From assembly GCF_000212735.1 (NCBI RefSeq), contig NC_015510.1, positions 1,984,001-2,048,000 on the forward strand: 64,000 nt of DNA, written 5' to 3'. Within the stretch, counting starts at the first letter, position 1. Each line of letters starts with the position of its first letter. The notes under the pieces are model-generated. The model worked only from the letters and a program-made list of their open reading frames with translations. It had not been told where the DNA came from and made no database searches. Positions 5,912 through 64,000 of the stretch are shown piece by piece. Source of the DNA: Haliscomenobacter hydrossis DSM 1100 (lineage in GTDB: Bacteria; Bacteroidota; Bacteroidia; Chitinophagales; Saprospiraceae). The position numbers were made by a program, and so were the translations under genes.

Positions 5912-6690
5912 TCACGATTGATCATCAAACCCTGGCAGATATACAAAGCTGCTCCCTGGCAAATACGGCTCCAGTAAGTCAAGCTCCAGCAAACATCCCT
6001 GATTTTCAAACACATAATTCCGAGCACTGCTGTACAGATACGCTTCCGCTTTATCCACCCATCCGGCCCGAACCGGGTTTTGATGAATGTAGTCTACTTT
6101 TTGCCAAATTACTTTGGGTGAAACCAGCGCAATGGGATGATTGTCTTGTATCCAAAATTGATAAGTGCTGGAACCTTATTTATCGACAGAATTCAACGCT
6201 GAGATTTTGGATTTCAGCGACTTATTTTTGAAGCGCAATGCAGCGCATTGTAATGAAAAAATAAGGAAGATGAAATTCAAAAGATCAAGTTGAAAATGTC
6301 GATTAATAAGGTTCCAGCACTTAAGTTCGATTATTGGCATGGAATCGAGCAAAGTATCGAAATACATGTAACATCCATTCCTTGCGGCTTTCGTTTCCTT
6401 TTGCAATTGCTTCCAAAATCTGCCGGGAGGTAAATTTTTTAAAATCTCGAAGCACTTCCGACAGTGTTAACTCCCCTTCCGCTCTGACAATCATGTGGAT
6501 GTGATTGCTCATGATCACGTAGGCACAAATGATCAGTCCTTTTTCTTTCCGGCAATAGGCCAGGCTTTCAAGCACGATATCTCGGTAAGTTTTTCTGGTG
6601 AATACATCTACCCAACCCACAACCGTACAGGTAACGTAATTCAAACCATGCTGATCCAGGATGCGGTAACGCGGCAGATGGTTTTTGCAT
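5912..6690 (-). pseudogene. REP-associated tyrosine transposase (RAYT, IS200-like Y1 family), broken by MITE and frameshift
   Basis: Read on the minus strand, the two halves join into one RAYT of about 205 residues once the MITE and one copy of its TA duplication are removed. The first half has the HUH motif NHIHMIV and the block LNYVTCTVVGWVDVFTRKTY. The second half (5912-6162) has YQFWIQDNHPIAL and the catalytic-tyrosine block VDYIHQNPVRAGW. Two lesions are visible. The MITE puts a stop straight after HANNRT. Near the start, ATG at 6690 runs into five A's; four A's would give MQNHLPRYRILDQHGL in frame, so one extra A (6682-6686) shifts the frame. Such proteins process hairpin (REP) DNA through a 5'-phosphotyrosine. 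This copy should be inactive, but its relatives may have moved the hairpins nearby. Confidence 0.85.
6164..6321. mobile_element. 158-bp MITE with TA target duplication (IS630/Tc1-mariner type ends)
   Basis: The element has 25-bp terminal inverted repeats beginning AGTGCTGGAACCTTATT with a single mismatch (T/A) at position 18. It is flanked on both sides by TA (6162-6163 and 6322-6323). Deleting the element plus one TA restores the codons Asn-Arg-Thr-Tyr-Gln-Phe of the RAYT gene exactly, which proves the insertion boundary. TA duplication is typical of IS630/Tc1-mariner elements. The 158 bp encode no transposase, so it must have moved in trans. No second copy and no matching full element were seen here. 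Confidence 0.9.
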
Positions 6691-9775: not shown

Positions 9776-9817
9776 GTACCGGAAGACAACCGGAATACGG
9801 TGGATTTGGATAAATAA
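9776..9817 (+). other. orphan copy of the 3' end of the left-edge peptidase gene
   Basis: About 35 bases here match the end of the M1 peptidase gene at 468-500 with three differences and keep the frame, encoding VPEDNRNTVDLDK and then TAA. Nothing upstream in this frame resembles a peptidase. It is probably a relic of a related gene tail carried or left behind by rearrangement. Confidence 0.5.
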
Positions 9818-9819
9818 AC

Positions 9820-10000
9820 ATGAATCATCCCGAATTTTTTAGGGCCACAAAAGCGACACTTTTTTAGCACAAAGAACACAAAGGAAAGCACAAAGATCAC
9901 AAGGTGGCGGTTGTCTTAGTGCACTTTGTGCTTTCCTTCGTGTCCTTTGTGCTACTTTTTTGATCCGCTTTGGTCTTTTTAAAAATTCGGGATGACTCAT
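9820..10000. repeat. about 180-bp palindromic intergenic repeat, copy 1
   Basis: The ends form an inverted repeat, ATCATCCCGAATTTTT at the left and AAAAATTCGGGATGA at the right. The inside also folds on itself, with CACAAAGnACACAAAGGAAAGC against GCACTTTGTGCTTTCC. A second copy at 29103-29284 shares most of the sequence. No open frame of note. It lies downstream of the CHRD gene's stop, where a long hairpin could end transcription. Confidence 0.75.
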
Positions 10001-10099
10001 ATTTTTTCGTTTATGCGGCTTTAGCACTAATTTGACCCAACAAATCTGTAGCCATTTGTTTTGGAGCCGAAGACTTGGACTAGCGGAGAAGCATTTTTT

Positions 10100-19597: not shown

Positions 19598-19672
19598 ATC
19601 CTGAATTTGATTTGATCAACACAAATGATAAATTTTTTGTCCCTGCCTGCGGCGGCACTAAAAGAATAATTT

Positions 19673-19752
19673 CACCACAGATTTGCACGGATTAGCACAG
19701 ATTTTTTGGATGCAACGAAAAAATCTGTGCTAATCTGTGTGAATCTGTGGTG
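19673..19752. repeat. long hairpin of the CACCACAGATT family
   Basis: CACCACAGATTtGCACGGATTAGCACAGATTTTTT faces AAAAAATCTGTGCTAATCtGTGTGAATCTGTGGTG in halves of about 35 bases, with a loop of 10. The outer 11 bases match the 10.1 kb hairpin. Both are next to a GCCGCCGCAGG-type GC-rich run (19643-19656 and 10194-10205). It fills the gap between the aminotransferase start and the GNAT stop. Confidence 0.8.
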
Positions 19753-19774
19753 AATAAAATCTCCCGCAGGCCAA

Positions 19775-29093: not shown

Positions 29094-29102
29094 GCAGGAA
29101 AC

Positions 29103-29284
29103 ATTCGTCATCCCGAATTTTTTAGTGCAACAAAAGCGACACTTTTTTAACACAAAGGGCACAAAGAAAGGCACAAGGAACACAATGCAGCACTTGTCTT
29201 TGTGCACTTTGTGCTTTCCTTTGTGTCCTTTGTGCTACTTTTTTGATCCGCTTTGGTCTTTTTAAAAATTCGGGTTGATTCATG
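29103..29284. repeat. about 180-bp palindromic intergenic repeat, copy 2
   Basis: It starts TCGTCATCCCGAATTTTTTAG and ends TTTAAAAATTCGGGTTGATTCA, with the same CACAAAG and GCACTTTGTGCTTTCCTTTG core as 9820-10000. Identity between the copies is high, with changes mostly in the outer loop. It separates the convergent ends of the glycoside-hydrolase-like gene and lepA, a likely bidirectional terminator. Confidence 0.8.
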
Positions 29285-29285
29285 T

Positions 29286-31079
29286 TTAATCCGTCAATTT
29301 CAATACATCCAAAAATGCCTTCTGCGGCACTTCTACACTACCAATCTGACGCATCTTTTTCTTTCCTTCTTTCTGCTTTTCAAGCAGTTTACGTTTACGC
29401 GAGATGTCCCCACCATAACACTTGGCCGTTACGTCTTTGCGCAGGGCGGAGATGGTTTCACGGGCAATAATCTTGGCACCCACGGCCGCCTGGATGGCAA
29501 TGAGAAATTGTTGGCGGGGCAGCAGTTCTTTGAGGCGCGTACAAATCTTGCGGCCAAACGACTCTGCCTTGGAGCGGTGAACCAGTGCTGAAAGTGCATC
29601 CACATTTTCGCCATTCAACTTGATCTCCAGTTTGACCAGGTCGGAAGCCCGGTAGTCGATCATGGAATAGTCGAAAGAAGCATACCCGCGCGAAATTGAT
29701 TTGAGGCGATCGTAAAAATCGAATACAATTTCGGCCAGTGGCAACTCAAAAGTCAACTCAACCCGGTACGTCGTAAGGTAAGTTTGGCGCGTCAGAATTC
29801 CCCGTTTTTCCATACACAGGGTCATGATCGTCCCGATGTATTCCGGTTTGGTAATGATTTGCGCACGGATATAAGGTTCTTGTACTTCTTGCAGGTAGTT
29901 GGGATCCGGAAGATCAGCTGGAGTGCGTACCGGAAAGGCTTCCCCTTTGGTATTGGTTGCAAAATACGATACGTTGGGTACGGTCGTAATTACTTCCATG
30001 TTGAATTCCCGCGAAAGGCGTTCCTGAATGATCTCCAGGTGCAACATGCCCAGGAAACCACAACGGAAACCAAAACCCAGTGCTACGGAAGTTTCGGGTT
30101 CAAAGACCAGCGAAGCATCGTTGAGCTGGAGTTTTTCAAGGCTATCGCGCAGGTCTTCAAAATCATCGTTGTCGATGGGGAAAAGGCCCGCAAATACCAT
30201 CGGTTTGACATCCTCAAAACCGTGGATGGCTTCCGTACAAGGATTGATCGCGTTGGTGATGGTATCCCCTACTTTGATCTCGCGTGATTCCTTGATGCCT
30301 GTAATAATGTATCCCACGTTGCCCGCTTCCAAATAGGGCTGCGGAATCAGGTTCATTTGCAGAATCCCCAATTCGTCGACCTCATATTCTTTACTGGTGT
30401 GGAAAAACCGAACTTTTTCACCTTTGCGCATGCGCCCATTGAGGATGCGGAAATAGGCAATTACCCCCCGGAAAGAGTTGAATACGGAGTCAAAAATAAG
30501 TGCTTGCAGGGGGGCTTCGGGGTCTCCTTTGGGTGCCGGGACGCGGTTTACCACTGCGGTCATAATTTCTTGAATGCCGATTCCCGTTTTGCCGGAGGCC
30601 AACAAAATGTCTTCTTTGGTGCAACCAATCAGGTCGATGATCTGGTCGGAGACCTCATCGATCATGGCGCTTTCCATGTCAATTTTATTCAACACCGGAA
30701 TGATTTCCAGGTCGTGCTCAATAGCGAGGTAAAGGTTGGAAATGGTCTGTGCCTGAATGCCTTGGGATGCATCTACGAGCAAGAGCGCCCCTTCACAAGC
30801 GGCAATCGAACGGGATACTTCATAGGAAAAGTCAACGTGACCGGGGGTATCGATCATATTGAAGACATATACTTCCCCATCGGTATGCACATAGCGCATT
30901 TGGATGGCGTGGCTTTTGATGGTGATCCCACGCTCGCGCTCCAGATCCATGTTATCCAGGGTCTGGGCAACCATGTTGCGCTTGTCAATGGTTTTAGTGA
31001 ATTCCAACAAACGGTCAGACAAGGTACTTTTACCGTGGTCGATATGGGCAATTACACAAAAATTTCGAATGTTCTTCAT
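29286..31079 (-). CDS. lepA: elongation factor 4 (LepA), ribosome back-translocating GTPase
   Basis: The protein has 597 residues from the ATG at 31079 ([20 protein letters not shown]); 45 upstream codons are spurious. The G domain has HIDHGKST (P-loop), [17 protein letters not shown] and NKIDM. Later blocks [21 protein letters not shown] and the C-terminal LepA-specific [18 protein letters not shown] are all present, so the length and domains are complete. It helps rearrange stalled or mis-translocated ribosomes at high salt or low temperature. Cytoplasmic and membrane-associated. Confidence 0.98.
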
Positions 31080-37756: not shown

Positions 37757-37864
37757 GGTTTTAGGGTTTTAGGGTTTTAGGGTCTTAGGGTCTTAGGGTT
37801 GATCACAACATTCAATAATTGCGACCAACCCTAAAACCATAAGACCCTAAAACCTTAAGACCCG
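37747..37864. repeat. TTTTAGGG telomere-like array folding back as a hairpin
   Basis: Seven GGG runs are spaced by TTTTA (four times) and then TCTTA, from 37748 to 37799; a loop of about 25 bases follows, and a C-rich arm of CCCTAAAACC and CCCTAAAACCTTAAGACCC units from 37826 to 37864. The first repeat supplies the nucleotidase stop codon TAG (37754-37756), and the array ends four bases before the stop of the convergent BNR gene. The G-rich strand fits a G-quadruplex motif (GGG-N5 repeated). Confidence 0.9.
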
Positions 37865-37867
37865 AAT

Positions 37868-58721: not shown

Positions 58722-59069
58722 ATGAAAACCAATAAAACTTTGCTCATTATTGATGATGAAGTAGATGTATGTACGCTCTTAAGGCGCAGTTTCCGGGGAG
58801 AATTCAAAATTGTGGAAGCTGCGTATTTGCTGAATGACGCACTGAGCCTGGCCGAGCGCATTCACCCGGATATCGTTTTACTCGACAACAATCTGCCGGA
58901 TGGCCAGGGTATCGATTTCATTCAGCGGTTTAAGTCCATTAATCCATCCATGCGCATTGTGGTCATCAGCGCCATGGACTTGCATAGCGAGGCCATAGCG
59001 GCCGGTGCCAATGCCTTTTTGGGCAAACCCTTGAAGATGGAAGCGATTCGGGAGGCGATTTGTGCGTGA
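58722..59069 (+). CDS. single-domain response regulator
   Basis: The protein has 115 residues, one receiver domain: Asp11-Asp12 in IIDDEVDV, Asp55 in IVLLDNNLPDGQGI as acceptor, VISAMD with the Ser switch and FLGKPLK with the Lys. It has no output domain. It stands alone, with no kinase beside it, though the rpoN/CHASE3 block is about 1.6 kb away, and may be part of that network. After its stop comes the symporter fragment. Confidence 0.92.
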   Translation: MKTNKTLLIIDDEVDVCTLLRRSFRGEFKIVEAAYLLNDALSLAERIHPDIVLLDNNLPDGQGIDFIQRFKSINPSMRIVVISAMDLHSEAIAAGANAFLGKPLKMEAIREAICA

Positions 59070-59129
59070 GGCATTTAGTGATTTTCAGTTCAAAAAAAAG
59101 CCACAAAAGCCAGTCCTAGCCCTATAAAT

Positions 59130-59387
59130 TTACCCAACCACCTCCTCTTTCTCCTTCTCCGGCATCACGCCCTGCAATACCGCCGCGATCCCCATCACCA
59201 GCAAGCACCCGATCAGGTTCAACCACAAGTACGCTACCCGCACCGGAATTACCCAACCGAACAGGTTGAGGCTCATCTTGTATTCGCTCATCACGTACAC
59301 GACGATCACGATGATTTGGGTCAAAATGGCCGTAAGGAATGCCGCTCTACCCTTGACTTTGGGGGTGATTAGACATTTGGTCATCAA
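59130..59387 (-). pseudogene. C-terminal fragment of a sodium/solute symporter gene (displaced copy)
   Basis: On the minus strand this 258-base frame reads PKVKGRAAFLTAILTQIIVIVVYVMSEYKMSLN and onward to EKEKEEVVG, the same as the end of the symporter at the right edge with a few changes (ILTQ, KEEVVG). Upstream the match stops abruptly at about 59363, and the preceding codons (MMTKCLIT) are unrelated. The match covers about 270 bases at roughly 85-90 percent identity and includes the 3' untranslated tail down to 59091. So it is a diverged fragment, not a complete gene. Confidence 0.85.
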
Positions 59388-59410
59388 TCCTTTATAATGC
59401 TTTCAAAAAT

Positions 59411-59424
59411 TAGTACCTCACAAG
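59411..59424 (+). repeat. 14-bp direct repeat at the left edge of the ATPase cassette
   Basis: TTAGTACCTCACAA here matches TTAGTACCTTACAA at 63618-63631 in 13 of 14 bases. The two lie just inside the duplicated symporter ends, and could be attachment-site halves. Alone, 14 bases is weak evidence. Confidence 0.4.
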
Positions 59425-59474
59425 TCATGATCTCACGACCTTTCCAACTTCCAACATTATATTAAGTTTTGATT

Positions 59475-59556
59475 TTTTGACTATAAATTTGCAGTTATCA
59501 ATTTTTGACTATATTTTTGTAGTCAAAATATTTTAACTGGAAAATTATAGTCAAAA
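59475..59556 (+). promoter_or_regulatory. promoter with four TTTTGACTA operator boxes
   Basis: A TTTG (59488-59491) and TAttTTTG (59512-59519) are 20 bases apart, the perfect promoter spacing. Around it lie TTTTGACTATA (59475-59485), TTTTGACTATA (59503-59513), TAGTCAAAA (59520-59528) and TATAGTCAAAA (59546-59556). Boxes two and three form a palindrome over the -7 element; the fourth overlaps the ATG. This fits tight repression of the cassette. Confidence 0.65.
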
Positions 59557-60743
59557 TGAACAACTGGAAAAATCCTAAAATCATCGTAGGAAATGTCGCC
59601 AAAGGTGATTTTTACTTCCCTCGCTTGGACATTGAAGCCCAAATCTGGGAAGAACTAGACAAAGGGAGCCATATTTTATTGGCCGCTCCGCGCAGGGTCG
59701 GTAAAACCTCTGTCATGCTGTCCATGCTGGAAAACAGCCCCGCTGACACCCGTTGCATCTTCAAAAACATTCAGGGCGTTCAGTCGGAAGAGCAGTTTTA
59801 CCAACAGTTTTTTGAATCCATGCTGGAATGTTTGAACAAATTTCAACAAGGCATGGGCTGGTTCAAAGATCTATTCAAGCGCCTGAACATTCAGGAAATC
59901 AACTTAGAGGGCGTGAAATTCGGTGATAAAAAACCGCTAGACTACCCTGAAGAAATCCATAGGCTGTTGGTCAAGTTGAGCGAGAACAAAGTCAAAATTG
60001 TACTTTTTATGGACGAATTGCCCGAAGTACTGAACAATCTCTACAAAAAACAACAGATACAAGAAGCTAAAAGTATTTTGAACAATTTGAGAATGTGGCG
60101 ACAAAACCCGCTTTTTCACGGCTATTTTCATTTGGTTTTGGCAGGTTCAGTCGGAGTACATCACATCGTAAAAATCATCGAAGGGCGGACGGCGGACATC
60201 AACGATTTAAGCGTCATTGATTTTGAGGCATTGACGAAGGAGGAAGCCAGACAATACCTACATTGGGCAACTGGCGAGGCAACTGTACAATACAACGACG
60301 CCTTATCTGAGCACCTGCTGTCAAAAATCCACTATTTTATTCCTTATTTCATCAATTTGCTACTGGATGAAATCAACAAGGCCGCTCGTAAGTCGCAGAA
60401 TCCAAGCATTTCCAGGGCGGATATTGACGCTGCTTTTGATAAAGTGGTGAAAAACAGCGCACATTTCGAGGAATGGAAAAACCGCATTTTTGACTATTAC
60501 CCCAAACCGGAAGCTGATTTTTTAAACGAGGTGCTGACCTTTATCGCCCATTACGGGAAAATCAGCAAACAGGAACTCTACAACCTCGCCGTCAAACACC
60601 TATTGCAAAACAATTACATGACATTGGTCCGCGATCTGGAAAACGATGGCTACCTCGTGGAGCAGGGTGAGCACCACATTTACATTTCCCCTTTTTTACA
60701 AGCATTCTGGAAACAAGATAATCCTGTGTACCATGGAAAATAA
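59556..60743 (+). CDS. AAA-family ATP-binding protein, first of a pair
   Basis: The protein has 395 residues. Walker A is APRRVGKTSVM (about 44-54) and Walker B is KIVLFMDELPEVL (about 147-159), with an arginine-rich P-loop and the block FPRLDIEAQIWEEL before it. A sensor strand FHLVLAGSVGVHH and a winged-helix-like C-terminus (about 300-390; LNEVLTFIAHYGKISKQELYNLAVKH, DLENDGYLVEQGEHHIYISPFL) follow. It belongs to the STAND-like/archaeal-ATPase group. The start ATG overlaps the fourth operator box. Its stop overlaps the next start by 11 bases, so the two ATPases are made together. Function is unknown; see the cassette finding. Confidence 0.88.
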   Translation: MNNWKNPKIIVGNVAKGDFYFPRLDIEAQIWEELDKGSHILLAAPRRVGKTSVMLSMLENSPADTRCIFKNIQGVQSEEQFYQQFFESMLECLNKFQQGMGWFKDLFKRLNIQEINLEGVKFGDKKPLDYPEEIHRLLVKLSENKVKIVLFMDELPEVLNNLYKKQQIQEAKSILNNLRMWRQNPLFHGYFHLVLAGSVGVHHIVKIIEGRTADINDLSVIDFEALTKEEARQYLHWATGEATVQYNDALSEHLLSKIHYFIPYFINLLLDEINKAARKSQNPSISRADIDAAFDKVVKNSAHFEEWKNRIFDYYPKPEADFLNEVLTFIAHYGKISKQELYNLAVKHLLQNNYMTLVRDLENDGYLVEQGEHHIYISPFLQAFWKQDNPVYHGK

Positions 60744-63147
60744 ACAGTACGCAAGCCCGATGAATTTTATTGACAAACTGACGCTCTATCAGGCTGCCAA
60801 CACCAGCAATGCTGCCATCAAAAAGAATTTTTTGGTGCGCATTGCGGAATTTGAGTTGATCATTGCCGATTTGCGCTCTAAAAAAAGCAAAGACCCACTG
60901 CAACACGAACTCATTTTGGGTCGGCGGGGCAGCGGTAAGTCTACCTTGCTGAAGCGGATACAGGCAGAAATAGAGGAAGACCCCGATCTGAAGGCGCGCT
61001 ATTGGGCCATCAACCTGGCAGAAGAGCAGGCGGGTATTTATCGCCTCTCCGACCTCTGGTTTGAAGTGCTCAAAGAACTCAGATACCTTTCAAACACATC
61101 CAACACCCTGCGCGATTTTGATACCTTCGACAGTGACACGGCCTACACCCGCTACCTCTACGCTGAGATACACCACCTTTTAGCAGAAAAAGGGTACAAA
61201 GTGGTGTTACTCTTGGACAATCTCGACCGCATTTTGGAAAACTTCAATGAAGACGCCCATTTGTTCCGCGAATTCCTGATCAACTACAACGACCTCCAGA
61301 TTATCGGCGGCAGCACCCGCATGGACGAGCATTTTTGGCGATACGACAAGCCGTTTTACGATTTTTTCAGGATACACCGCCTGGAGGGGCTGACCTTTGA
61401 AGAGATAAACCACCTGCTCAACCACTGGAGCGCGGTCATGGAATTGCCCGAATTGAAGGATTATGCCCTGCGGCACCGTGGAAAAATAGAAGCCATTCGC
61501 ATCTTTACCAACGGGTTGCCGCGCGCCTTGCAGTTTTTTATCGAAATACTCCTACACGATTCGACACTCTACGGCTTTGATTACCTGAAAAAAATCATGG
61601 ACAAGGCCACACCCCTCTATCAGGAACGCCTGAACAACCTGACGGGACAACAACGCAAGATTGTGTTGGAAATGGCTTTCCATTACGAAGCCTGCCCTAC
61701 AAAAGTATTGGTGGAAAAATGCCGGATGGAAGGCAAAACCATCGCCGCCATTTTGAATAAATTGCAGGAATTTGGCATCGTTGAAACCCTAAAAACGGGC
61801 AACAAAAACAACCTGTACCGCATCGCCGAGCGCTTTTTTAACATGTGGCTCATTGTGACCCAAGGCAACCCCAACCAAAAACGCCGCGCCCGCTACCTGA
61901 CGCATTTTGTAGAAGCCTGGTATGATCCCAAAGAACTCCGAGACCTAGCTATGGCTCATATCGAAGACTTAAAGTCGGGCAAAATACCCTATGATAAAGC
62001 GTTTGTGTTGACCAAAGCCCTCACCCAATCGCAATTTATTGGCACGACTCTACGCGATGAACTGATAGATTACACCACGAAATTGGATGAAAGGAATATA
62101 AACAATCTTGAATTGCCCCGAAAATTTGACGAAATAAGCAAAGAAATAAGCGATTTCATGAGCATTAAAGATTATAAATCTGCCTTGGAAAAACTCGACG
62201 AAATAGAAAATGAAGAAGATGGAATTAAGTTTTGGGCTAAAGGCTTATGCTATAGCGGCCAGAATGACTATAAAAACGCGGAAAAACATTATCGATTAGC
62301 TATTGAAAAAGGTCAATTCAATGCTTCATATAGCTTGGCTAACTTATATAACCGTCAAAGCAAAACTGACTTGGCAGAAAAACATTATCTCTTAGCCATT
62401 GAAAAAGGGAATGTTGATTCTTTAACTAATCTGGCTGTTTTGTATCATGAACAAGACAAAACCGACCTAGCGGAAAAATATTTTCTCTTAGCCTTTGAAA
62501 ATGGGTATGTAGATGCTTTATATAATCTAGCTATTTTGTATCATGGTCGAGGCAAAACTGATCTCGCAGAAAAATATTATCGCTTAGCCATTGAGAAAGG
62601 TGATGGAGATGCTTTATTTAACCTGGCTGTTTTGTATTCAGAACAAAGCAAAACCGACCTAGCGGAAAAACATTATCTCTTAGCCATTGAGAAAGGTGAT
62701 ATAAATGCTTTGAATAATCTAGCCTACTTGTATTGGGAAACCAATCAAAAGAAAAAAAAGGCTTTACAACTTATCCAACAACATGCCGAAAAAGTAGATC
62801 GTGCCTTAGGTAATGTACTCATCTTAGAAATATGGAATGGCATGTTTGAAAATGTAACGGAGAAAACAGATGGCATTTTTGAAAAAAGTCAGTACGAGGG
62901 TTTAATTGATTTCATCGAAGCCCTGCTATGGCTGGGCCAAACCCATCTTGTCCTGTCCTTCTTTGAGAGCGAAACACACGGTGATGCCTTGCGCACCCGC
63001 TACGAGTTGCTGTACTATGCCACCCTGATATTGGCTGATAAAACAGAAGGGAATTTATTGATCAAAATCCCGCCCGAAACCCTGCCTACCGTGGAGGACA
63101 TCGTGCAAAAGGTGAAGGAAAAACGGGCGTTTTATGGTGTGGTGTAA
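60733..63147 (+). CDS. AAA-family ATP-binding protein with Sel1/TPR-like repeat tail, second of a pair
   Basis: The protein has 804 residues from the ATG at 60733; a 29-codon extension is unlikely. Walker A is GRRGSGKST (63-71), Walker B is VVLLLDNLDRIL (about 157-168), followed by IIGGSTRMDEHFW. A winged helix follows (about 330-380). Residues about 514-674 hold five near-identical 36-residue repeats (AEKHYLLAIEKGNVDSLTNL, AEKYFLLAFENGYVDALYNL and so on), Sel1/TPR-like helices that bind partners; nucleotide identity between them is high, so the number may vary between strains. The tail (690-804) is helical. Such architecture, ATPase plus repeat sensor, is common in defence STAND proteins, but I cannot assign a system. 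Confidence 0.85.
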   Translation: MENKQYASPMNFIDKLTLYQAANTSNAAIKKNFLVRIAEFELIIADLRSKKSKDPLQHELILGRRGSGKSTLLKRIQAEIEEDPDLKARYWAINLAEEQAGIYRLSDLWFEVLKELRYLSNTSNTLRDFDTFDSDTAYTRYLYAEIHHLLAEKGYKVVLLLDNLDRILENFNEDAHLFREFLINYNDLQIIGGSTRMDEHFWRYDKPFYDFFRIHRLEGLTFEEINHLLNHWSAVMELPELKDYALRHRGKIEAIRIFTNGLPRALQFFIEILLHDSTLYGFDYLKKIMDKATPLYQERLNNLTGQQRKIVLEMAFHYEACPTKVLVEKCRMEGKTIAAILNKLQEFGIVETLKTGNKNNLYRIAERFFNMWLIVTQGNPNQKRRARYLTHFVEAWYDPKELRDLAMAHIEDLKSGKIPYDKAFVLTKALTQSQFIGTTLRDELIDYTTKLDERNINNLELPRKFDEISKEISDFMSIKDYKSALEKLDEIENEEDGIKFWAKGLCYSGQNDYKNAEKHYRLAIEKGQFNASYSLANLYNRQSKTDLAEKHYLLAIEKGNVDSLTNLAVLYHEQDKTDLAEKYFLLAFENGYVDALYNLAILYHGRGKTDLAEKYYRLAIEKGDGDALFNLAVLYSEQSKTDLAEKHYLLAIEKGDINALNNLAYLYWETNQKKKKALQLIQQHAEKVDRALGNVLILEIWNGMFENVTEKTDGIFEKSQYEGLIDFIEALLWLGQTHLVLSFFESETHGDALRTRYELLYYATLILADKTEGNLLIKIPPETLPTVEDIVQKVKEKRAFYGVV

Positions 63148-63152
63148 AGATG

Positions 63153-63169
63153 GAGGCAGAAGCTGCCTC
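63153..63169. terminator. short hairpin between convergent cassette genes
   Basis: GAGGCAG-AAG-CTGCCTC, directly after the second ATPase stop (63145-63147) and overlapping the stop of the Uma2-like gene. There is no T-run, so it is a weak terminator or a stabilising hairpin. Confidence 0.45.
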
Positions 63170-63599
63170 AAGCGAAAACCCCTATTTCTAGACCCAAACA
63201 ATCCGAATAATCCGATTCTTCAATCACTTCATTTTGAGGCGTGATTTTGTACCAACCTTGTATCTCATAATCGTAATATTCCAATAAAGGCCGATACACC
63301 ACAAAAAAGATTTCCTGCAAATCAGGGTAATAATCAATCAGCTCTTCATAACGTTTCCGCTTGGCATTGTCACTGAACGGCTTTTTGAAGATTTCAATGC
63401 ACACTTTTGCGGTCTCTTCTTTGTCAAAAACGGTAACATCAGCAGATAAACTTTTTTCGTCGTCATCCCGCAAGGCCGCTTCTTGAATGGGCTGCCATTC
63501 TTTCAAATTAAGTTTACTCGTCAAATTGATCAAAATCTGACGAGCAATGATTTGGTGGGTTTTGGCAGGACGTACAGGCATATAGACGGCACTCATCAT
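63168..63599 (-). CDS. Uma2-like PD-(D/E)XK endonuclease-related protein
   Basis: The protein has 143 residues. It has the Uma2-type order: RPAKTHQIIARQILINLTSKL (helix), the acidic strand LSADVTVFD with Asp about 54, VCIEIFKK with Glu and Lys about 69/72, and YEELIDYYPDLQEIFFVVYRPL. That makes a PD-(D/E)XK fold of the sort found in orphan Uma2/DUF820 proteins, common in cyanobacteria and Bacteroidota. The E-x-K reads I-E-I-F-K, one residue longer than usual, so catalysis is doubtful. It lies on the opposite strand to the two ATPases and ends at the hairpin. Its coupling to them is inferred from position only. Confidence 0.7.
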   Translation of the reverse strand: MMSAVYMPVRPAKTHQIIARQILINLTSKLNLKEWQPIQEAALRDDDEKSLSADVTVFDKEETAKVCIEIFKKPFSDNAKRKRYEELIDYYPDLQEIFFVVYRPLLEYYDYEIQGWYKITPQNEVIEESDYSDCLGLEIGVFA

Positions 63600-63617
63600 T
63601 TTTTGCGGTTTTGACTT

Positions 63618-63631
63618 TTAGTACCTTACAA
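63618..63631 (+). repeat. 14-bp direct repeat at the right edge of the ATPase cassette
   Basis: TTAGTACCTTACAA, one base different from the copy at 59411-59424, lies 8 bases before the right copy of the symporter 3' end begins (about 63639). Confidence 0.4.
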
Positions 63632-63677
63632 AATAAAAGAAAAAAAGCCACAAAAGCTAATCCTAACCCCCATAATT

Positions 63678-64000
63678 TTACCCAACCACTCCCTCTTTCT
63701 CCTTCTCGGGCATCACCCCTTGCAACACCGCTGCGATCCCCATCACCAGCAAGCACCCGATCAAGTTCAACCACAGATACGCTACCCGCACCGGAATCAC
63801 CCAACCGAACAGGTTGAGGCTCATTTTGTACTCGCTCATCACATACACCACAATCACGATGATTTGGGTCAAAATGGCCGCCAGAAATGCCGCTCTACCT
63901 TTGACTTTGGGTAGAAAAAACGCCGTCAGGAACACCCCCAAGATGACCCCATAGAAGATCGAACCGATGATGTTTACAGCCTGAATCAGGTTGTCGAACA
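63678..64000 (-). CDS. sodium:solute symporter family protein, C-terminal part (gene continues past right edge)
   Basis: The last 107 residues are visible, from FDNLIQAVNIIGSIFYGVILG to EKEKEGVVG and the TAA at 63678-63680. Two hydrophobic spans (IIGSIFYGVILGVFLTAFF and AFLAAILTQIIVIVVYVM), then NLFGWVIPVRVAYLWLNLIGCLLVMGIAAVLQ, match the end of SSS-family sodium symporters. The substrate is unknown. Its 3' end is duplicated at 59091-59363 beyond the cassette. Confidence 0.85.
   Translation of the reverse strand, partial: FDNLIQAVNIIGSIFYGVILGVFLTAFFLPKVKGRAAFLAAILTQIIVIVVYVMSEYKMSLNLFGWVIPVRVAYLWLNLIGCLLVMGIAAVLQGVMPEKEKEGVVG

Follow-up and report, generated by a model that had tools for sequence, protein, structure and literature searches.

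Duplicated symporter 3' ends around a STAND ATPase pair in Haliscomenobacter hydrossis, the likely scar of one horizontal transfer

Introduction

Homology-facilitated illegitimate recombination is a process in which foreign DNA is gained without mobility genes, through homology on one side of the incoming fragment and a short microhomology on the other. As described in the parts of the report cited here, it occurs in Streptococcus pneumoniae, Acinetobacter baylyi, and Pseudomonas stutzeri, and the microhomologies measure 3-10 bp in most cases (PMC3240628). The same paper covers an Escherichia coli study in which polymerase chain reaction indicated a partial duplication for 56 of 60 clones (14 were sequenced); the explanation offered there is that a circle from which part of the homology was missing entered by a single crossover (PMC3240628). 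Here, we describe a locus of Haliscomenobacter hydrossis DSM 1100 in which the 3' end of a sodium/solute symporter gene occurs twice in direct orientation, around a cassette of two overlapping genes for STAND-type ATPases (ATPase 1 and ATPase 2). We consider it likely that this layout is the scar of one horizontal transfer, in which DNA of a sister strain entered by homology within the symporter gene and by microhomology at the other end; a self-moving element is most likely not needed. The locus extends to the right end of the window, that is, the whole stretch of 64,000 nucleotides analyzed (C1:1984001-2048000, NC_015510.1), which belongs to the main contig (8,371,686 bp) of a genome of 8,771,651 bp. 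All positions given below are those of the window.

The mechanism proposed here is an established one at a new site, with a STAND pair as its cargo. The likeness to homology-facilitated illegitimate recombination, as portrayed in the parts of the literature cited above, lies in the one-sided homology, the microhomology on the other side, and the acquisition of foreign DNA in the absence of mobility genes. The locus differs in that the microhomology spans 14 bp with one or two mismatches rather than 3-10 bp, in that the illegitimate end would lie inside the recipient's copy of the anchor gene, giving a partial duplication instead of a deletion, and in that it would be a natural scar and not a laboratory product. 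A second parallel is provided by the effector modules of the type VI secretion system of Vibrio cholerae, for which the cited part of the report describes sequential displacement, with a similar mechanism suggested by its authors (PMC5361080). There, as here, a homology-anchored incoming module displaces older sequence, and remnants are left beyond it (PMC5361080). What is left behind in V. cholerae, as far as that part of the report goes, consists of immunity genes and the 3' end of an effector, within the variable locus itself, whereas the anchor here is an unrelated transporter gene.

The cargo also has structural relatives. ATPase 1 shares its fold with the archaeal STAND ATPases 2fna and 2qen, which we take to belong to the "MNS clade", and ATPase 2 shares the order of an ATPase followed by tetratricopeptide repeats (TPR) with the STAND-TPR structure 6mfv, presumably PH0952. 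Unlike in these proteins, two STAND-like ATPases are encoded here by a pair of overlapping genes, and the TPR block of ATPase 2, whose length varies, is followed by a conserved C-terminal cap.

The duplicated symporter 3' end

The features that carry the argument are listed below. Five genomes of the genus were compared, namely that of H. hydrossis itself (hereafter "own") and four others, G001 to G004.

58722-59069, plus strand: resident response-regulator gene, left neighbor of the slot (Pfam Response_reg, 3.8e-20)
59093-59363, minus strand: putatively displaced symporter 3' end, with the last 77 codons and stop (59130-59363) and the 3' untranslated part
59350-59363, no strand: 14-bp microhomology at the join, symporter by response-regulator tail (14-mer scan)
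59364-59430, plus strand: putative donor response-regulator tail and spacer (alignment to the regulator tail and spacer of G004)
59431-63168, plus strand: ATPase-pair cassette common to G004, with its left end at 59431
63640-64000, minus strand: 3' end of the intact symporter gene, which continues past the window

A preliminary description of this DNA had reported that the symporter 3' end recurs in the same orientation, and alignment confirms it: 59093-59363 and 63640-63911 are 90.4% identical over 272 columns (E 9.7e-99), the 3' untranslated stretch included. The resulting divergence of 9.6% falls just below the 10-15% estimated earlier. A search of the whole 8.77-Mb genome returned these two matches and no third copy. 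The intact gene (L003 7678-9426, the full gene reaching the window-equivalent position 65426) encodes a sodium/solute symporter (TIGR00813, 2.2e-66). Between the copies lie a 67-bp spacer, the two ATPase genes, a small open reading frame (ORF) of 143 aa, and two nearly identical 14-bp repeats. We infer that the left copy is the recipient's original symporter end and that the 3' end of the intact gene is donor-derived.

The manner in which the copies have diverged is informative. Across the 77 codons, 19 differ, 17 silently and two by replacement, which corresponds to 0.44 synonymous substitutions per synonymous site (dS; 95% interval 0.24-0.74) and 0.011 nonsynonymous substitutions per nonsynonymous site (dN). 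When 70 codons were polarized by G004 and G002, nine changes (one replacement) fell on the lineage of the fragment and seven (no replacement) on that of the right copy, with two left unpolarized. Nine random changes gave a mean of 6.1-6.9 replacements in a neutral simulation, and one replacement or fewer among nine has a probability of 0.0001-0.00075 under neutrality, depending on transition bias; neutral decay of the left copy in place is rejected. The fragment and the right copy are about equally distant from both relatives, with similarities of 167/211 and 169/211 to G004 and of 169/211 and 171/211 to G002. Since the divergence is almost wholly silent and the distances to relatives are about equal, the copies must have separated as working genes and come together later. 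The view of the preliminary description that one copy came from another strain is supported.

The left break, the spacer, and the 14-bp repeats

The sequence of the left copy at the join is CCCTTGACTTTGGG, after which it departs from the symporter gene. The corresponding stretch of the response-regulator gene is CCCTTGAACTTGGG in G004, CCTTTGAATTTGGG in G001, and CCTTTGGATTTGGG in G002. All 14-mers of each symporter copy were scanned against each response-regulator gene. For the left copy, pairs agreeing at 12 or more of 14 bases numbered one in 89,526 for G004 and one in 94,686 for G001, both located exactly at 59350-59363, and none in 89,526 for G002 or in 86,430 for the own regulator; at that position the score is 12/14 to G004 and G001, 11/14 to G002, and 10/14 to the own regulator. 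For the right copy, the same patch produced three overlapping registers among 102,760 pairs for G001 (best 13/14) and one among 97,160 for G002 (12/14), with none among 97,160 for G004 or 93,800 for the own regulator. Joining the flanks at the break restores an open, symporter-like frame, GVILGVFLTAFFLPKVKGRAAFLT. Both marks of a scar of homology-facilitated illegitimate recombination are present here, a short microhomology on one side of the putatively foreign DNA and a homologous segment (the symporter 3' end, 90.4% between recipient and putative donor copy) on the other.

Beyond the break the sequence continues GGTGATT, seven bases identical to the G004 regulator tail. In global alignment, the 67-bp spacer matches the 54-bp spacer of G004 better than any of 5000 shuffles, and better than any of 3000 in a repeat run, while 2528 of 3000 shuffles did as well when the symporter was aligned to the spacer.

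Two further elements lie near the ends of the stretch between the copies:

59410-59423, plus strand: left 14-bp repeat, TTAGTACCTCACAA, aligning with regulator-tail/spacer sequence of G004
63618-63631, plus strand: right 14-bp repeat, TTAGTACCTTACAA

These nearly identical direct repeats had been pointed out in the preliminary description, and they form a genome-unique pair, the pattern TTAGTACCTYACAA having no further occurrence in the genome. A 13/14 match between two spacers this short was reached in 3 of 3000 shuffles and in 1 of 2987 random window pairs. The repeats sit at least 47 bp inside, away from the symporter break. Their reading as a target-site duplication was dropped once the left copy had been aligned with the G004 spacer, and an 8-bp repeat around the G004 cassette, CAAAAGCC, was judged by eye to be a likely chance match.

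The slot in related genomes and transfer of the cassette

The response-regulator gene has an orthologue in the same place in G001, G002, and G004. In G004 it is followed by the same ATPase cassette, a 472-aa gene, and the symporter; the slot contains neither a symporter fragment nor the 143-aa ORF. In G002 the order is regulator, 472-aa DUF3863/DUF3864 gene, and symporter, and in G001 the contig ends within the first piece of the 472-aa gene after the regulator; no cassette was seen after the regulator in either genome. G003 holds a closest symporter relative at 62%, and its left neighbors differ by eye. The 472-aa gene fills the slot between regulator and symporter in G001 (partially), G002, and G004 (L027 4699-6114, L028 7031-8449), and was not found in the own genome or in G003. 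An exact empty site was not seen among the five genomes.

The cassette is 91.2% identical to that of G004 at the nucleotide level over 59406-62700 and 83.9% over 62281-63168, and in the non-coding stretch upstream of ATPase 1, 117 of 127 columns are identical. Between the own genome and G004, dS is 0.22 (0.16-0.30) for ATPase 1 and 0.26 (0.19-0.34) for residues 1-480 of ATPase 2. The corresponding values for the surroundings are 1.32 (1.04-1.80) for the symporter, 1.40 (lower bound 0.82) for the regulator, and 1.55 (lower bound 0.97) for YtxH, and two genes farther left stand at 2.4 and at saturation; five of the six nearby genes tested exceed 1. Since dS in the cassette lies far below that of most of its surroundings, the two lineages have exchanged the cassette in this same slot, and more recently than most of what surrounds it. 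The earlier proposal that the cassette is an arrival is supported.

Proposed origin of the layout

In the mechanism that we favor, a sister lineage would have carried the ATPase-pair cassette and the small ORF between its response-regulator and symporter genes. A fragment of its chromosome, comprising the regulator tail, spacer, cassette, ORF, and 3' part of the symporter, would have entered the recipient and recombined by ordinary homology within the symporter. Its regulator-tail end would have been joined at the 14-bp near-match inside the recipient symporter, about 270 bp into what is now the duplicated 3' end. The old 3' end of the recipient would thereby have been left isolated next to the resident regulator, and the intact gene would have received a donor 3' end. 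The DNA may have been linear, with RecA-dependent recombination, as in homology-facilitated illegitimate recombination, or may first have formed a circle that entered by a single crossover, with the same product. The duplicate, its almost wholly silent divergence, the microhomology at the break, the match to the regulator tail, the restored frame, and the low dS of the cassette are observed directly; the order of events and the donor are reconstructed from them, and either form of the DNA would fit. Two elements of the preliminary description, the involvement of homologous exchange and the displacement of the old 3' end to the far side, are retained in this account.

Several observations weigh against this proposal. 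The symporter-side crossover point cannot be located, and the donor genome was not found, so that its regulator tail is known through similarity to G004 alone. The 14-bp microhomology exceeds the usual 3-10 bp. In local alignment, 66 of 5000 shuffles matched G004 as well as the spacer did, and the match is patchy beyond the first seven bases; G001 and G002 share the microhomology and then show no match beyond six bases (1403 and 936 of 3000 shuffles, respectively), and the own regulator tail aligns to the spacer slightly above chance (59 of 3000). The spacer was compared only with four regulators (own, G001, G002, and G004) and the symporter, and the idea of a regulator tail was formed after the sequence had been viewed. 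To the right of the slot, an 852-aa gene, which we take to be LmbE-like, has an intermediate dS of 0.58 (0.50-0.68) against G004, which does not fit the simple picture. ComEC is present in the own genome but also in 10 of 14 controls, and says little.

Alternative explanations

The layout had been read in the preliminary description as the footprint of an element that integrates in the 3' end of a gene and supplies a substitute for it. If an integrase- or satellite-type element had inserted at the symporter 3' end, rebuilt that end from a copy it carried, and pushed the original aside, a displaced end on the far side and genome-unique direct repeats near both ends would be accounted for. The sequence after the break, however, is best matched by the tail of a response-regulator gene that neighbors the same cassette in G004, the break itself falls on a symporter/regulator microhomology, and the cassette of G004 occupies this slot although no symporter fragment is present there. 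Furthermore, the 14-bp repeats lie off the break, leaving no attachment-site repeat at the join, and none of the three main ORFs in the intervening stretch (the two ATPases and the 143-aa ORF) matched a recombinase family, in keeping with the earlier remark that no integrase is present. ATPase 1 had no match in 50,697 phage records, and six peptide patterns of ATPase 2 had none in viral contigs. We regard such an element as very unlikely.

An ordinary tandem duplication of the symporter, in which the second copy was shortened and the ATPase pair arrived by a separate insertion, is consistent with the direct orientation, and two complete paralogues that diverged under selection and were truncated afterward would likewise differ mostly at silent sites. 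It does not predict a regulator-like tail and microhomology at the break, and the fragment lineage lacks the mark of neutral decay. The preliminary description had named tandem symporters in relatives as the case that would overturn it; none was found, since G002 and G004, in which the orthologous locus is complete, each have one symporter there. This explanation is likewise very unlikely. Least probable of the three is an unequal crossover between sister chromosomes that already had the order regulator, cassette, symporter, followed by loss of the first cassette. Symporter and regulator flank the cassette, so a microhomology crossover would make the same join, and the alignment of the own regulator tail to the spacer, a little above chance at 59 of 3000 shuffles, is in its favor. 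The tail nevertheless fits the G004 regulator better than the own one (0 versus 59 of 3000 shuffles), the own regulator scores just 10/14 at the break, an extra deletion is required, and fresh duplicates would be identical, yet their dS is 0.44.

ATPase 1, ATPase 2, and the small ORF

The contents of the cassette and its neighbor are as follows:

59475-59556, plus strand: inverted repeats TTTTGACTATA / TATAGTCAAAA, just upstream of ATPase 1
59556-60743, plus strand: ATPase 1, short STAND-type ATPase, 395 aa (Pfam AAA_35/ATPase_2)
60733-63147, plus strand: ATPase 2, STAND-type ATPase with a TPR array and a C-terminal cap, 804 aa (Pfam TPR, weak ATPase_2)
61993-62892, plus strand: divergent TPR block of ATPase 2, residues 421-720 (dS/dN, own versus G004, L027)
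63168-63599, minus strand: small ORF, 143 aa, no family match

The gene content given in the preliminary description stands as to two overlapping ATPase genes, the second of which starts at the ATG at 60733 and overlaps the first by 11 bp. The "Uma2-like" label for the small ORF has no support from Pfam, where no family matched at 1e-3 and HSDR_N_2 alone appeared at E=0.11; nor was a relative of this ORF found in 60 other genomes of the family, a draw that did not include G001, G002, or G004.

A P-loop ATPase core with a STAND/ORC-like fold is recognized in both proteins by structure comparison. The AlphaFold2 model of ATPase 1 has a predicted local distance difference test score (pLDDT) of 89, and its top PDB matches are 2fna and 2qen (E 1e-11, template modeling (TM) scores of 0.58-0.62 by query, 13-17% identity); its C-terminal part has the look of a winged helix by eye. 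The model of ATPase 2 (pLDDT 81.6, predicted TM score 0.56) matches a TPR superhelix first and then 6mfv (E 1.8e-9, whole-chain TM score 0.26). Sequence searches of the PDB with ATPase 1 and with residues 1-456 of ATPase 2 returned nothing at E 0.01. A C-terminal superstructure of the sensor type is found in the TPR block of ATPase 2, and none in ATPase 1.

Between the own genome and G004 the TPR block shows dS 0.65 and dN 0.161, against dS 0.22 and dN 0.010 before it and dS 0.17 and dN 0.026 after it, values that may be inflated in the block, as gain and loss of repeats can pair non-orthologous ones. Divergence in the block is roughly four times that in the remainder of the gene. By motif, five repeats are counted in the own protein and six in that of G004, three of the latter being 86-90% alike. 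The natural reading of these patterns is a sensor under turnover, and the TPR part of ATPase 2 probably senses something.

Outside this locus, the window holds a second direct duplicate (9816-10004 and 29099-29287, 189 bp, 88% identity, 19 kb apart) and long imperfect palindromes at 19671-19754, 37764-37866, and 6162-6323 that are 77-88% self-complementary.

Conservation of the pair and the question of defense

ATPase 1 has a match at E 1e-3 or better in 83 of 395 genomes of the phylum. ATPase 2 lies downstream at 23 of the 24 loci where ATPase 1 reaches E ~1e-40 or better, and at 24 of the 30 best-match loci, own included, while the gene neighborhoods vary between loci by eye. ATPase 1 and ATPase 2 form a conserved two-gene STAND pair, which has no family name in the libraries searched. 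At four loci from one family of the phylum (L113, L115, L117, and L118) the pair stands beside apparently the same neighbors, judged by gene length only: the neighbor on one side encodes 439-441 aa, and two of these loci also have a gene of 475 aa.

The inverted repeats at 59475-59556 are a possible autoregulatory operator. Of 36 pair loci, 21 have strong inverted repeats close to the ATPase 1 start (equaled in at most 1 of 40 shuffles; L061, L104, L110-L112, and L116-L124 are among these loci), and in the other 15 such repeats do not stand out; the set includes some close relatives and automatically assigned start codons. The core of the repeats varies from locus to locus, which would be expected of an autoregulatory operator, and this difference in sequence suggests that each pair has an operator of its own.

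Matches to ATPase 2 also occur in 63 plasmid records. Among the 15 matches listed, the ATPase part is matched in three Moraxella osloensis plasmids and one Sphingobium plasmid, and the TPR part in 11. One relative of the pair, in which the ATPase 1 gene appears to have a shortened start, lies on the mobilizable M. osloensis plasmid p4 (L106 5010-8064) and adjoins an IS5 transposase.

For ATPase 1 and ATPase 2 together, PADLOC gave six weak, partial hits with E-values from 1e-6 to 4e-4, and for the 143-aa ORF it gave none; a strong match to a named anti-phage defense family was not among them. Among 76 neighbors of 20 pairs, searched at E 1e-15, there were three mad2, two mad3, two type I methyltransferases, two type II methyltransferases, and one each of AbiD, mad8, and a ZorB-like (OmpA-family) protein, a tally that was run without a control set and supports no defense-island claim. 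A description of paired STAND proteins was not turned up by a literature search, which does not prove that none exists. The pair may plausibly have a defense role. More tentatively, the pair may be a paired STAND immune receptor, in which ATPase 2 would be the sensor, with its TPR recognition block in turnover and its ATPase and cap fixed, and ATPase 1 the helper; it would have its own palindromic operator and would be traded between species via one chromosomal slot by recombination in neighboring genes, not by a mobile element.

Conclusions

Gene-end duplicates that resemble integration footprints are easily misread as islands. This locus illustrates, down to single bases, how an island-like picture can arise without a mobile element when one flank is joined through homology and the opposite flank through a short near-match. 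The locus also points to a conserved STAND ATPase pair in Bacteroidota with a fast-changing, sensor-like block.

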